A stretch of DNA of 24,859 nt. It comes from a virus. The position numbers and the translations under genes are program-made. Below the pieces are notes generated by a model. The model searched no databases and was not told the DNA's origin. It saw nothing but the letters and a program-made list of their open reading frames with translations. Location of the stretch: positions 1-24,859 of IMG/VR virus record IMGVR_UViG_3300020473_000118. One strand, written 5' to 3'. This document shows, in pieces, positions 3,783-16,545 of this stretch (positions within the stretch are counted from its first letter, which is position 1; each line of letters opens with the position of its first letter).

Positions 3783-4904
3783 CTAATTACACTTCCATTG
3801 TAAGCATACCATACCAAATCTACCAGCGTCTGCACAAACTCCATCAGAACCCCAAGAGTGAGTTTCCCAACCACCAGCAGCAGGTACTCTTAGACAACTA
3901 CTCTGCCAAGAAGAACAATAAGGATAAGCACAACAAGTACCAGAAGACCATGTTGGGCAACACTGAGTACACATTTCAAATCCTTTAATTGGTGGGTGTA
4001 CTGACCATCCATACTTACTACTATCATAACAGTACCTAGGCCATGATCCACGAATACCATATATTATAGCATTATTAACTTTTGTTGCATCCTCTTCACC
4101 AGCCCAATAATCACATTTTATACATCCATTATACATTGATCCAGCAACAAACTTGAGAGGTCCTTGGCATATTGCACAAACCTGACCATTACAGAAATGC
4201 ATTCCCTCTTCACAAATACATCCACCTGAATCTGGGCAACAAGCAGTAGCAATTCTATAGTAAGAACATTTACCTATATTACCAGCCCAACTATGTAAGG
4301 TTCCATCCCCACCTTCTGCACAGAATTGACAGAACACACCGTGTCCATCATACACCCAAGTAGGACATCCTGGAACTCTTCCTCTTCCACCTGCAGTTTG
4401 ATAACAACAATAAGCACAACCAGAACACATACAGAAACATTGTCCTGGAGTAACCTTAACAATAGCAGATGCATATGCTCCAGTAGATCCAAAAGGAGAA
4501 TCAGCAAACGATCTAGCAGAACCAGATCCACCACCTGCACCCCAAAGTTGGAATCGAGCACAAGTTACACCAGGTGGAACACACCAAGTACAGTTATATC
4601 CACATCTCCAATATCCAGAAGGATTACAAACTTTTAGATCATTAGTCCAACCATCTCCTTCTGGAATACAATCCCAAAACTTTGGTTCACTAACTTGGTT
4701 CTGTGATGACCATTGAACTGGACACCACATTAAGCAAGGTTCAATCTCACATAACCACTGAATAGAACTAACAGCTGATCCACCGCCACCACCAATTTGA
4801 GCTACCTTCTCATTAACAAGAGTTCTATAACAGGCTTCCTTTTCTCTAATACTTTTTTGATACTCGACCTGTTGATTAAAAGCAGTATAACTTAATACAT
4901 CCAT
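3783..4904 (-). CDS. Cysteine-rich tail-fibre-like protein, copy 2
   Basis: 373 residues with 40 cysteines (about 11%), including CxxC, CC and CxC clusters throughout. A short helical N-terminus (MDVLSYTAF, 1-35) leads to a five-glycine hinge (38-42). A glycine-rich beta module follows, with GVTCARFQLWGAG (112-124) and GAYASAIVKVTPGQ (142-155), the pattern of glycine-rich domains common near phage fibre tips. It is a paralogue of the 363-aa protein upstream: the same N-terminal motif, the same GVTCARFQLWGAG block, SGCAxCC, and a similar end (GRFGMVC). It is probably a virion surface protein stabilised by disulphides or metal, though no zinc-finger or other named cysteine fold is recognised. 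It starts three bases after the preceding stop, with GAGG about 12 bases before the ATG. No signal peptide is seen. The function is inferred from context. Confidence 0.7.
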   Translation of the reverse strand: MDVLSYTAFNQQVEYQKSIREKEACYRTLVNEKVAQIGGGGGSAVSSIQWLCEIEPCLMWCPVQWSSQNQVSEPKFWDCIPEGDGWTNDLKVCNPSGYWRCGYNCTWCVPPGVTCARFQLWGAGGGSGSARSFADSPFGSTGAYASAIVKVTPGQCFCMCSGCAYCCYQTAGGRGRVPGCPTWVYDGHGVFCQFCAEGGDGTLHSWAGNIGKCSYYRIATACCPDSGGCICEEGMHFCNGQVCAICQGPLKFVAGSMYNGCIKCDYWAGEEDATKVNNAIIYGIRGSWPRYCYDSSKYGWSVHPPIKGFEMCTQCCPTWSSGTCCAYPYCSSWQSSCLRVPAAGGWETHSWGSDGVCADAGRFGMVCLQWKCN

Positions 4905-5678: not shown

Positions 5679-6770
5679 TTAACCATAACAAATACAAACC
5701 ATACCCATTCTACCAAAATCTCCTTGAGGATATCCAGTATGACCACCACATTTCATGTTATATGATCCACCACGAGAAGGAACTTGATTACATCCCTGTG
5801 ATGCCATTGAACAACATCCACCTCTATTATAACAACAAGCTTCATATGAAGTGTTGTTTTGACAGGTATCATTACATCCTAAGAATCCATAAGTAGGAGC
5901 ATGTAATGCACAGGCTCTAAAACCACCACCCGTCATAAATTGTCCATATAATCCATTATGACCATAAATTTCACCCTGTGATGCAGTACCATAATATGTA
6001 ACTTCCTCTTCATCAATCATTGGCCAATGATATCTATTCTGAGAACCTCTAGGCCAAGCATATGCGGATTGAGGAATACTGTTCTCTAAGCACATATCAT
6101 TACCATTATATTGAGCACACATACCCATATAATATAACCAGTTACTATACTGACCTAGTCCTTTACCAGTTCCACCCTGATTATTATGTGCTTTAATAGT
6201 ACAACATATATTACTTCTTCCTCCCTGAGCACAGAAATTAGTTAATCCAGTTCCTTGTACATAAGATGGGTTTCCTACAGTATTTGCTCCTCCCCAACAA
6301 GGATGACAGCATTGAGCACAACCAGAACATATCGTATAAGTTTGTCCTGAGCTTACAGGAATTATAACAGAAGCATATGCTCCAGATGATCCAGGTAGAC
6401 CGTATCCACAGCAACAACTAGTTCCAGAAGAAGCACCTGCACCCCAAAGTTGAAATCTAGCACAAGTTACACCACTTGGAACAGTCCAACTACAATTACA
6501 ACCACATCTCAAATATCCTGATTGGTCACAAACTTTAAATCCAGTAGTCCAACTACCACTTGCAGGGTCTTTGGGTATCAAACACCACAATAATGGATTC
6601 CTTGCACCAGAATATTTAACTAATTTTATATTAGCTTCATTAGCACCACCACCGCCACCGCTACCGCCAGATTGAACCTCGGTTATAGACGCATCAAGAG
6701 CTTGAATCTTATCTCTCAACCCCTGATTTATTTCCGCAAGAGCGTTATATGTTAATACATCTACTGCCAT
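5679..6770 (-). CDS. Cysteine-rich tail-fibre-like protein, copy 1
   Basis: 363 residues with 30 cysteines (about 8%), many as CC pairs or CxxC. Residues 1-33 form a short helical stalk (MAVDVLTYNAL) followed by a Gly/Ser hinge (34-42). The glycine-rich beta module has GVTCARFQLWGAG (100-112), GAYASVIIPVSSGQ (130-143) and SGCAQCC (149-155). The C-terminal part is rich in Gly, Asn, Tyr and Cys and ends GRMGMVC. It is paralogous to the 373-aa protein at 3783-4904, sharing the N-terminal motif, the hinge, the module and the end, but the middle and much of the cysteine spacing differ. It is probably a virion surface or fibre-tip protein, inferred from the fold style and cluster. It follows the 89-aa gene by one base and has GAGG seven bases before the ATG. 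How so many cysteines are kept reduced or paired in a phage made in the cytoplasm is unclear. Confidence 0.7.
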   Translation of the reverse strand: MAVDVLTYNALAEINQGLRDKIQALDASITEVQSGGSGGGGGANEANIKLVKYSGARNPLLWCLIPKDPASGSWTTGFKVCDQSGYLRCGCNCSWTVPSGVTCARFQLWGAGASSGTSCCCGYGLPGSSGAYASVIIPVSSGQTYTICSGCAQCCHPCWGGANTVGNPSYVQGTGLTNFCAQGGRSNICCTIKAHNNQGGTGKGLGQYSNWLYYMGMCAQYNGNDMCLENSIPQSAYAWPRGSQNRYHWPMIDEEEVTYYGTASQGEIYGHNGLYGQFMTGGGFRACALHAPTYGFLGCNDTCQNNTSYEACCYNRGGCCSMASQGCNQVPSRGGSYNMKCGGHTGYPQGDFGRMGMVCICYG

Positions 6771-12990: not shown

Positions 12991-13851
12991 CTAAGTTACA
13001 CTACCTCCATGACCATAAACATAATATTCAGTACTTGATATGCACAATACTTTGCAAAAGGATAACTGATTCATCGTAAGTGTGGTTTTAAGTTGACCAG
13101 GACCAGCATTACCTGCTGCTGGTGGCATCAGAATAAATTGAGCACTACCTGAAGTAGTCATAGTAGCACCATTTATATTTTGATTATTAATAACCGTAAT
13201 CTCATCTCCAGGTTGTAATGTGGATCCAAGTGATGAAATATTAACAGAGTTATTACCACTTGTACCAGTCATATTAATTATCTTTCCTGCATCAGCACCA
13301 GTTACAGAATAAGAACCATTAGCAGCAGTAGTAGTTAGAACTACACCACCAGAAAATGGATTACCAATAATAAATCTACCACCCATATTAGAGTGTGCTG
13401 TACATTGATAGTAAAGCACACTAGGTGCATCTTGAGGAACATCAAATACAATGTCTGTTGGTGCAACACCATCATTATTAGTTACACCAGTATTGTATTG
13501 TGTACCTGCAGATCCATTAATAGTACTTTGAATCCTAAACGGATGTCCTGAAGATCTATTATGGAAAATATATCTCTGCCCTCTCACAAGATTTATATCA
13601 GGATCGAATCTAGTTCCACCATCAAATCCAGGTCCTTTAAAACTATAATGATCAGTTCCATCATTACCAATCTCCCAACTAGCAATAGCACCTCTAAACT
13701 CATAGGCAGTACAGGTTGCACCAATTGATACATCAGTACTAATAGCAACATTTACAGCATTTAAATTTATGTTATTAGGACTTGTAAGTGTTGGACTACC
13801 AGAAGGTTGAACAAAACTAATTTTCTTTACACCGAAACCTTTTTCTGCCAT
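12991..13851 (-). CDS. Structural protein with a cupredoxin-like domain and possible type 1 copper site
   Basis: 286 residues. Residues ~65-162 resemble a cupredoxin domain: INLVRGQRYIFHN (86-98), HPFRIQ (103-108), a beta segment DIVFDVP, and YYQCTAHSNMGGRF (147-160). H103, C150, H153 and M156 would be the type 1 copper ligands, with a C-x2-H-x2-M spacing a little shorter than the C-x2-H-x4-M of plastocyanin. After this comes GNPFSGGVVLTTTAANG and a C-terminal beta domain (ITVINNQNINGATM) of fibre style. Its place between the subtilase and fibre genes, and the N- and C-terminal fibre-like parts, suggest a virion protein rather than an electron carrier. Copper binding is inferred. The domain may be purely structural. 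A weak late-promoter-like motif lies upstream. Confidence 0.7.
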   Translation of the reverse strand: MAEKGFGVKKISFVQPSGSPTLTSPNNINLNAVNVAISTDVSIGATCTAYEFRGAIASWEIGNDGTDHYSFKGPGFDGGTRFDPDINLVRGQRYIFHNRSSGHPFRIQSTINGSAGTQYNTGVTNNDGVAPTDIVFDVPQDAPSVLYYQCTAHSNMGGRFIIGNPFSGGVVLTTTAANGSYSVTGADAGKIINMTGTSGNNSVNISSLGSTLQPGDEITVINNQNINGATMTTSGSAQFILMPPAAGNAGPGQLKTTLTMNQLSFCKVLCISSTEYYVYGHGGSVT

Positions 13852-13873: not shown

Positions 13874-15697
13874 TTAGGAACTTAATGATGCTTCCCCATT
13901 ATTAGCATATGGGTTATATAAAATCCTACGACGAGAACTCTTTAAACTATAAGTATTTCCCCAGTAGGATGAATCAGTTGCACTGTTACTTTGATATGGA
14001 TCATAAAAAGCAGTCTCTGGCATTTCTAAAGAACCATGTTCAAATAACCACTTTCTTGCCTGTGCCCTTGTAGCACCTGGATTAGCTTCCAAATACAATG
14101 CCATCACACCACACACTTGAGGTGTTGCCATACTGGTTCCACTTATAGCATAATTGTAAAATGTTCCATTTCTTGGGTCAGCATATCCAGCATCATATGG
14201 ACTAAGAATATTAGATCCACCAGCCCAGACATCAACAGCAGGTCCTCTATTACTAAAAGAAGAACATCTTTCTTGATCAGTTCCACCTTGTGTAGTAACA
14301 TCTATAGATCCAACAACAATTGCAGCATCTTCTTTATCTTGATGACTAAATGCAGGTGTTCCGCTTCTATTATAATAGTTACTATACCCATCATTATAAT
14401 ACATAGTACCACTGTCTATTGTATTATCATAATCCCTACCTACAGGTATCTCTTGTTTATCATCAGAATTACCTGCAGCAAAGCACCATACAATATCTTT
14501 ACAATCAGGATCTGCAAATACTTCATCGGCTTCTGATTGACCATATGTTTGCACAGAAGTAAACTGTTTGTATGGTCCCCAAGTAGACATCCAATAAACA
14601 GATGGACAAGCAGTTGAAGACATTGATGCTTTAGGGAAAGTTTGCCCTCTTTCAGTTGCAGTATAATTATTTGCAGCAGTAAAGAATTGTCTGAATCCCC
14701 AACTACCATTAACTACAGTAGGATTTCTTCTACCAGTTTCTGGATTGATTGGTTTATTCTTATGCCAAACTTTAATATAATCAAATCCATCAGAAGGATT
14801 TGACCATCCACAATCACTTCTATCAACACAAGCGATAGACCATATGTTTCCTTCAAAAGCATGACCAAATTGATTTCCAGCAGCAGTTCCAGCAACATGA
14901 CTACCATGATAACTTATACTATAAGGATAACCAGAGTATCCTTTCTCCATCATTAAAGCAGAATTAACTTTATAATTTGCTAGTGTTGAAGTTCCAGGAG
15001 CAACCAAACCTTCAGAAGCCCAATTAATGTTGTACTCAGAAGCACCGTGGATTAATATGTCTCTTACTCTAGTATAATCTTCACAAGCAGTAGGATCAGG
15101 AACAGATGTGATTCCTGGTTTTAAAAACTCTGGATGATCCCAACGAACACCAGTGTCCATAATAACGACATCAACATTTTTTCCAGTCAAAGTATAATGT
15201 ACTTCAGATGGAACCTCTGGATTAGGACCAAAAACATTAAATTTATTTGAATGTCTCCATAATCCCCACTGAGTAAAATCCAATACTCCACCTGGATTAC
15301 CTCCACCACCAGAAGAATCTCTTCTATTTCTAACAGGATATTTAAATCTATCAGTGGTTAGATGACTGTCAAACTCCTGGTCATATTTTCTCTGCTCTAT
15401 CTCATACTCATTATATAAATGAGATCTCAGAACCCAATCAACTTTGGGATGATTTTTTAATACATCTGCCTCTGCAGGAGACATTTCATATACACTTCTC
15501 TTTGGAGAACACTTCATCTCTGAAGTACAATCAATCTTTCTATTTGGTATATTGTCTATATTATTTTCATCAATTATATAATCATGAATCTCTTGCCAAT
15601 CTAAAGCATCCTTTACGCATACAGTATATGCTTGCTGAGTATCAGGATATACAACAAGAACTCTTCCAGTATTTGAATCTAATGTTGTACTAATCAT
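13874..15697 (-). CDS. Subtilisin-like serine protease (peptidase S8) in the virion gene cluster
   Basis: 607 residues. The catalytic core spans about 165-560. Asp181 lies in VVIMDTGV, His264 in HGSHVAGTAAG (264-274), Asn410 in CFAAGNSDD (405-413, the oxyanion Asn) and Ser522 in SGTSMATPQVCG (519-530). All four key residues are present. Residues 1-130 could be a prodomain or virion-anchoring part, and a glycine-rich linker (SSGGGGNPGG, 128-137) separates it from the core. There is no signal peptide or membrane segment. The core has long insertions compared with compact subtilisins and a ~45-residue Ser/Tyr/Asn-rich tail. Start: ATG in a 4-base ATGA overlap with the 283-aa gene, with GGAGG four bases before it. 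Position amid fibre genes suggests a virion-borne or fibre-maturation protease, which is an inference. Digestion of host surface proteins is an alternative. Confidence 0.88.
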   Translation of the reverse strand: MISTTLDSNTGRVLVVYPDTQQAYTVCVKDALDWQEIHDYIIDENNIDNIPNRKIDCTSEMKCSPKRSVYEMSPAEADVLKNHPKVDWVLRSHLYNEYEIEQRKYDQEFDSHLTTDRFKYPVRNRRDSSGGGGNPGGVLDFTQWGLWRHSNKFNVFGPNPEVPSEVHYTLTGKNVDVVIMDTGVRWDHPEFLKPGITSVPDPTACEDYTRVRDILIHGASEYNINWASEGLVAPGTSTLANYKVNSALMMEKGYSGYPYSISYHGSHVAGTAAGNQFGHAFEGNIWSIACVDRSDCGWSNPSDGFDYIKVWHKNKPINPETGRRNPTVVNGSWGFRQFFTAANNYTATERGQTFPKASMSSTACPSVYWMSTWGPYKQFTSVQTYGQSEADEVFADPDCKDIVWCFAAGNSDDKQEIPVGRDYDNTIDSGTMYYNDGYSNYYNRSGTPAFSHQDKEDAAIVVGSIDVTTQGGTDQERCSSFSNRGPAVDVWAGGSNILSPYDAGYADPRNGTFYNYAISGTSMATPQVCGVMALYLEANPGATRAQARKWLFEHGSLEMPETAFYDPYQSNSATDSSYWGNTYSLKSSRRRILYNPYANNGEASLSS

Positions 15698-16545
15698 GAT
15701 ACCTCCGTTCTAAAGAATTTATAAGTTATTGTTCCAGTAATTCCAGTTTCTGGTGTAGCATTTATAGTTAAACTACCGCCAGCAATAGATGATCCAACAG
15801 AAACAAGAAGATGATTATTAAAAGTTATTCCAGATTGTTGAATATAAGAATTACTTCCATCATTTAATATTGTAACTTGTTGGGATTGCTTACCAAGAGA
15901 ATGACTGAAATACAGATTATAATCTGCCGTCACATTACTTGTAGCAATACTATCTAATACCTCTGTTTGTCCTGCAGCAGCATTAAAAGTAGAACCACCA
16001 AGAGTACTTGATCCTGGAGCACTAGGAAGGTTGGTTAAGTTAGATCCATCTCCAACAAATGCATTAGCAGTTACAATACCTGCTACTGTTACACCACTAT
16101 TTCTAACAGTAACTATACCAACACTACCTTTATCTTCAACAAATAAATCACTAGTTCGTACTGTAAGATCACCAGTATTAGTATTTCCACCAGCACTTAT
16201 ATAAGCCTTACCATCATTGTTACCATTAATTTGTAACTTAGAATCAGCACCACTACCACCTTCAGTTAATGGGGTTCCTCCAAAATAAAGTGGTAAATTA
16301 TCTTTAAATCTTGCATTATTATGAAAATCAACAGAATTACTAAAACTACTTACTCCAACAAAAGTACTTACACCAGCTACCTTAATATTATTAAACTCTG
16401 ATGTTCCTTCAGTATTAATACCTGCTATTCCAATATCTCCTGTATTACCAGTGGATTTCCAAGTAGTTCCATCCCATTTCCAAGACTGACCAGAGGAAGC
16501 ATGAACATCATTTATATTTGGATTATTAGGAAAATTTATTGCCAT
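15694..16545 (-). CDS. Tail-fibre-like structural protein, 283 aa
   Basis: 283 residues. The N-terminus (MAINFPNNPNINDVHASSG, then WKWDGTTWKST) matches that of the neighbouring 676-aa protein (MAINFPASPNIDDTHSASG, WKYDGTSWN), showing a shared virion-attachment head. The middle carries repeats such as GVSTFVGVSSF, ITANAFVGDGSNLTNLP-like (158-174) and GGNTNTGDLTVRTSDL. The last ~90 residues (from about 195) form a beta domain ending TGTITYKFFRTEVS. It is a fibre or baseplate accessory protein, with the N-terminal head probably docking to the virion. The gene overlaps the 676-aa gene by one base (TAATG) and the subtilase by four, so translation is coupled in both directions. No catalytic motif is seen. 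Confidence 0.75.
   Translation of the reverse strand: MAINFPNNPNINDVHASSGQSWKWDGTTWKSTGNTGDIGIAGINTEGTSEFNNIKVAGVSTFVGVSSFSNSVDFHNNARFKDNLPLYFGGTPLTEGGSGADSKLQINGNNDGKAYISAGGNTNTGDLTVRTSDLFVEDKGSVGIVTVRNSGVTVAGIVTANAFVGDGSNLTNLPSAPGSSTLGGSTFNAAAGQTEVLDSIATSNVTADYNLYFSHSLGKQSQQVTILNDGSNSYIQQSGITFNNHLLVSVGSSIAGGSLTINATPETGITGTITYKFFRTEVS

Follow-up and report, generated by a model that had tools for sequence, protein, structure and literature searches.

Subtilisin-like (S8) serine proteases are recognized by a significant S8 profile hit that spans the catalytic domain, by a subtilisin/proteinase K fold, by Asp, His and Ser in that order together with an oxyanion-hole Asn, and by serine-dependent proteolysis. 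Zymogen subtilases of the I9 type have in addition a propeptide fold N-terminal to the catalytic domain and process themselves at its boundary, and secreted bacterial subtilases carry an N-terminal signal peptide. In phage tails, a subtilisin-like fold is found in the tail-sheath domain (PF04984), and JC307 gp55, a phage tail sheath, has a subtilase-like domain that lacks the catalytic triad (PMC13118943). Among cyanophages, an S8 peptidase was mentioned in P-HM1 and P-HM2 (Sullivan et al. 2010, PMC3037559), and proteins of the PHROGs family phrog_9158, which is listed there under "unknown function", adjoin fibre or baseplate genes in P-SSM2 (PSSM2_297), S-RSM4 (SRSM4_039) and S-H38 (annotated 'subtilisin-like serine protease'). 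The protease family and its fibre context have been visible in public cyanophage genomes for years. Our literature search on subtilisin-like, S8 or subtilase phage virion proteins, with most subscription journals outside its reach, returned nothing on the family except the remark in PMC3037559, and we found no paper that assigns it a role.

A subtilase gene in a cyanophage fibre cluster

The window analysed here, the whole 24.9-kb stretch of a virus record, is a fragment of a P-SSM2-like cyanophage (Kyanoviridae) and encodes a member of this family (Table 1). An earlier note on this DNA had proposed the open reading frame without naming its strand. The frame is real and lies on the minus strand, where it encodes 607 aa; the plus-strand translation is riddled with stops, and in 200 shuffles of the window the longest stop-free run was 210 codons. 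Pfam found a single domain in the product, Peptidase_S8 (PF00082; residues 172–551, E=2.2e-27; score 96.5 bits, cut-off 21.8). PHROGs placed it in phrog_9158 over nearly its full length (residues 19–604, E=4e-154), with a weaker match to phrog_3677, 'protease'. Other elements that had been read from the letters also hold. The four-base overlap with a fibre gene and the strong ribosome binding site are borne out by an ATGA shared between the protease start and the fibre stop and by a GGAGG, and the tail-fibre context by PHROGs matches of the neighbouring genes and by synteny with P-SSM2 that runs through endonuclease, fibre genes, short fibre, protease, fibre and carbamoyltransferase. The N terminus had been described as free of a signal peptide; its first 60 residues indeed contain no signal-peptide-like hydrophobic stretch (maximum 19-residue Kyte–Doolittle mean 0.39), so the enzyme, which departs in this from secreted bacterial subtilases, would be made in the cytoplasm. 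The same fibre cluster holds a paralogous pair of Cys- and Gly-rich proteins of phrog_35878 (unknown function; 3783–4904 and 5679–6770, minus strand), whose high cysteine content is unusual for a phage structural region.

Table 1 Features of the protease locus, in positions of the window
Feature	Position	Strand	Remarks
Upstream fibre gene, 283 aa	15694..16545	-	Overlaps the protease gene via ATGA
Conserved ~96-aa C-terminal 'tip' domain of upstream fibre	15697..15984	-	Linked to the protease in 18/18 phage records
Shine-Dalgarno GGAGG of protease gene	15702..15706	-	Inside the end of the upstream fibre gene, just before the ATG
Subtilisin-like serine protease gene, 607 aa	13874..15697	-	phrog_9158 / Peptidase_S8
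I9-like propeptide, residues ~20-108	15374..15640	-	AF2 model of residues 1-112
Low-confidence linker, residues ~110-137	15287..15370	-	Propeptide cleavage would be expected here
Catalytic domain, residues ~138-600, proteinase K/aqualysin fold	13898..15286	-	Predicted structure
Catalytic Asp181 codon	15155..15157	-	Invariant in homologues
Catalytic His264 codon	14906..14908	-	Invariant in homologues
Oxyanion-hole Asn410 codon	14468..14470	-	Invariant in homologues
Catalytic Ser522 codon	14132..14134	-	Invariant in homologues
Downstream fibre/connector protein, 286 aa, phrog_677-like	12991..13851	-	PHROGs
First 44 aa of downstream protein	13720-13851	-	Conserved with the cassette
Cupredoxin-like domain in downstream protein	13366..13698	-	Invariant His, Cys, His, Met

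Relatives of the protease were found by tblastn in 46 of 50,697 phage records, all of them marine cyanophages or marine single-cell phages. The closest, at 71.5% identity, are those of P-SSM2 and P-SSM5, the P-SSM2 protein thus differing from that of the window at ~28% of its sequence. Subtilases had been called rare in phage virion clusters, which overstates the case for this phage group because many T4-like cyanophage genomes already have the gene annotated. Nor is the gene new, since PSSM2_297 (T4-GC 292) is already tagged in GenBank as 'hypothetical protein, contains PF00082'. A branch comprising the S-H38, S-CREM1 and S-RSM4 proteases differs from the window in that it follows a different fibre C-terminal domain. 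Divergent relatives with 25–28% identity occur in other viral contigs (loci L109–L119), and the complete ones keep the triad. For a bacterial source, a single scan of genome contigs with two degenerate peptide patterns, a narrow search that excludes little, gave no relative.

A conserved active site and a predicted propeptide

The protease had been described as catalytically intact, and its sequence agrees: Asp181, His264, Asn410 and Ser522 appear in the S8 order in canonical contexts (VIMDTGVR, HGSHVAGT, AAGN and GTSMATP, respectively), and the Asp, His and Ser align with those of aqualysin I. Equivalents of the four residues are invariant in 57 of 57 aligned homologues. In a wider alignment of 77 rows, the only departures at these positions are gaps in three fragments, and every full-length homologue, down to ~25% identity, retains all four. 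Nei–Gojobori dN/dS values of the protease against its four closest relatives were 0.19–0.23, compared with 0.53–0.98 for the upstream and 0.64–0.72 for the downstream fibre in the same comparison with close relatives. Judging from these sequences, the active site is under purifying selection.

An AlphaFold2 model of the protease, built on 29 sequences, reached a pTM of 0.85 and predicts an S8 fold. Its catalytic domain matched a cold-adapted subtilisin-like proteinase (Z 31.8, 270 aligned residues, rmsd 2.3) and aqualysin I (Z 31.7). The predicted enzyme resembles proteinase K, aqualysin I and cold-adapted Vibrio-type subtilases in catalytic fold (Z about 30–32) and triad contexts, whereas it differs from them in having no signal peptide, long family-specific insertions and a phage fibre context.

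Modelled alone, residues 1–112 form a core of the order beta-alpha-beta-beta-alpha-beta, and subtilase propeptides make up the majority of its 20 best structural matches. The best match had Z 6.8 (65 aligned residues, rmsd 2.5), a Z below 8 not being decisive by itself. Foldseek gave no significant match of this model in the PDB (best E 0.07), and S8_pro-domain matched weakly in one relative. As the Pfam I9 profile had no match in the protease at E<=1, the assignment builds on fold and position: the segment stands directly before the subtilase domain, and residues ~20–108 therefore look like an I9-type propeptide, which is the natural reading of the model. They share predicted fold and position with known subtilase propeptides (I9; subtilisin E/BPN', Tk-subtilisin), from which they differ in the modest Z and the missing profile match. 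Between this segment and the catalytic domain, pLDDT falls below 50 at residues 110–125 and 127–133. Structure prediction had been suggested as a way of telling whether residues 1–130 form a prodomain or a virion-docking head; the region models as a propeptide followed by a flexible linker, and we set the docking head aside.

Fibre tip, protease and connector N terminus travel together

The gene before the protease encodes, at almost every locus, a fibre whose length varies widely (from about 244 to 2043 aa in complete ones) and whose C terminus is a conserved domain of ~96 residues, here called the tip. A search of the phage collection for the tip, independent of the protease, returned 18 records. 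Of these, 17 were already among the protease-bearing ones. In the remaining one, AG-345-F15, the tip is immediately followed by a divergent protease, giving 18 out of 18 records with this arrangement. Among the fetched loci, 150 of 152 tip domains stand directly before the protease; both exceptions come from a single S-SCSM1 gene that appears in two loci. This count is biased, since the protease was the query by which these loci were collected.

On the other side of the protease, the downstream gene begins with MADKxFGVK or similar in most loci. In pairs whose proteases are 40–55% identical, the tip had a median identity of 40% and the first 44 downstream residues one of 59%, as against 23% and 15% for the neighbouring fibre bodies. 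Exchange of the fibre bodies thus leaves tip, protease and downstream N terminus together. In S-SCSM2R, fibre, protease and cupredoxin-like connector (locus L122, 3391–9098) lie on the strand opposite the preceding genes, as if they were a self-contained insert.

The downstream protein of the window contains a cupredoxin-like domain, a putative metal binder, in which a type-1-copper-like ligand set (His, then C-x2-H-x2-M) is invariant in 52 of 52 collected domain copies. We found the domain in 349 phage records, where it frequently bears the annotation baseplate wedge or tail-fibre connector; Pfam Copper-bind picks up fused relatives, but with scores short of its cut-off. A literature search on phage cupredoxins found nothing relevant by title or abstract, and copper binding would be an unusual property for a phage tail protein. 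The S-SCSM2R gene annotated 'PetE (plastocyanin)' (locus L122, 8592–9098) is a phrog_677 connector with this domain directly after the protease, and is probably not a photosynthetic plastocyanin.

Fusions and virion annotation of relatives

Several relatives carry additional domains on the same chain. The S-SCSM1 protease gp144, named 'baseplate wedge subunit (virion protein)', resembles the window in the protease region (51.5% identity), the upstream tip gene and the type of downstream N terminus, and differs from it by a LamG-domain insertion in the C-terminal tail, where about 815 extra residues include two Laminin_G_3 matches. An unfused relative matches the DNA on either side of this insertion; the lectins therefore entered the tail or, as is less likely, were lost from it. 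In ACG-2014e, the protease is fused with a cupredoxin-like domain, and in ACG-2014h (locus L127, 3338–6262) with an alpha/beta-hydrolase (esterase-like; weak AXE1/BD-FAE matches) as well as a cupredoxin-like domain. The same hydrolase is also found within the annotated baseplate gp7 of S-ShM2, and has relatives in 65 cyanophage records. The window protease has no lectin domains and a shortened C-terminal tail. A C-terminal motif resembling GVxISGISFxQ ends 52 of 122 protease ORFs (for example in loci L037, L090 and L120) and 0 of 828 other ORFs over 150 aa; it is shortened in the window protein and may be a docking peptide.

Mass spectrometry detected 45 S-SCSM1 proteins in CsCl-purified virions (PMC9602691), and the GenBank record of this phage has 47 genes named or noted 'virion protein'. 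The tag is also present on NMNAT, a D-Ala-D-Ala carboxypeptidase and a translational repressor, proteins that prediction is most unlikely to have marked, and several predicted baseplate and head-closure genes lack it; it therefore very probably denotes detection. The protease–LamG fusion and both its neighbours, the tip-bearing gp145 and gp143, carry it. The authors of that study caution that CsCl preparations may retain abundant proteins of the infection. For S-CREM1, a proteome with 14 detected proteins has been reported.

Role of the protease

We favour, with a probability of about 0.5, a zymogen-type proteinase K-like subtilase that is carried on the fibre or baseplate of T4-like cyanophages and digests a host surface protein at or just after adsorption. 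Enzyme and fibre partner would be synthesized together in the host cytoplasm, the gene overlap suggesting translational coupling. The I9-like propeptide would guide folding, hold the enzyme inhibited until assembly and be removed by autoprocessing. From particle carriage onward we infer the steps: the mature protease would remain on the fibre assembly of the window phage's particle and trim a host-surface protein, in effect as a proteolytic counterpart of a tailspike depolymerase. The conserved active site, predicted folds, purifying selection, fixed tip linkage, fusions and virion annotation of one orthologue are all consistent with a particle-borne enzyme. Against it stands the fact that the virion tag concerns one fused orthologue, whereas the window version has a shorter tail and no lectins. 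The interpretation in the earlier note survives in part: its intact residues in a fibre cluster and its missing signal peptide hold, and of the two placements that it named, cytoplasm or particle, carriage on the particle is the more likely; its claim of rarity is overstated. The three roles that it offered (fibre maturation, digestion at adsorption and release at lysis) are inseparable by sequence alone.

Fibre maturation stays a serious rival because of the strict tip-domain linkage, even if we regard it as rather unlikely. The protease would here cleave the upstream fibre, for instance at the tip, or another fibre during tail maturation, whether or not it is then retained on the particle. 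Its pairing with the tip in all 18 phage records, the gene overlap, the missing export signal and a constraint stronger than that on the fibres fit such a role, and a propeptide enzyme beside a conserved fibre C terminus could equally be an assembly protease. However, inspection of the aligned loci by eye revealed no conserved cleavage-like sequence before the tip, S-SCSM1 gp143 has a tip with no protease gene after it, gp143 and the other tip-bearing protein, gp145, are both annotated as virion proteins, and lectin, esterase-like and cupredoxin-like fusions seem ill-suited to a dedicated processing enzyme.

The two other explanations fit poorly. An intracellular or lysis-time protease that breaks down host cytoplasmic proteins or aids progeny release would agree with cytoplasmic synthesis, and an active subtilase could help to degrade host proteins, but in the relatives examined the gene lies within the fibre/baseplate cluster, where it adjoins or overlaps a fibre gene, and this role is improbable given the fusions to lectin and baseplate-type domains and the orthologue annotated as a virion protein. 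A structural, non-proteolytic use of the fold has a precedent in the triad-less JC307 gp55 sheath and is very unlikely for a protein that retains its propeptide and, in all full-length homologues, four catalytic residues; with the triad intact and no Pfam match to PF04984, we rejected a tail-sheath identity.

The lectin, esterase-like and cupredoxin-like fusions, together with the S-SCSM1 virion annotation, favour a putatively particle-borne enzyme over a lysis factor. Our tentative proposal for the locus as a whole is a portable cassette, lodged between exchangeable fibre bodies and made up of fibre tip, zymogen protease and connector N terminus, that may supply cyanophages with a proteolytic tail enzyme, equivalent for protein to the tailspike depolymerases. 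In some phages this enzyme would form one chain with a lectin, esterase-like or cupredoxin-like domain. With most subscription journals out of reach, our searches turned up no description of the tip–protease linkage, of the propeptide assignment or of the series of fusions.

A protease active on the particle would give marine phages a tail enzyme that breaks down protein and could contribute to their choice of cyanobacterial host. Its strict association with one particular fibre end offers a direct means of locating it. We know of no identified receptor for most cyanophages, and a protease whose substrate can be found might lead to one.
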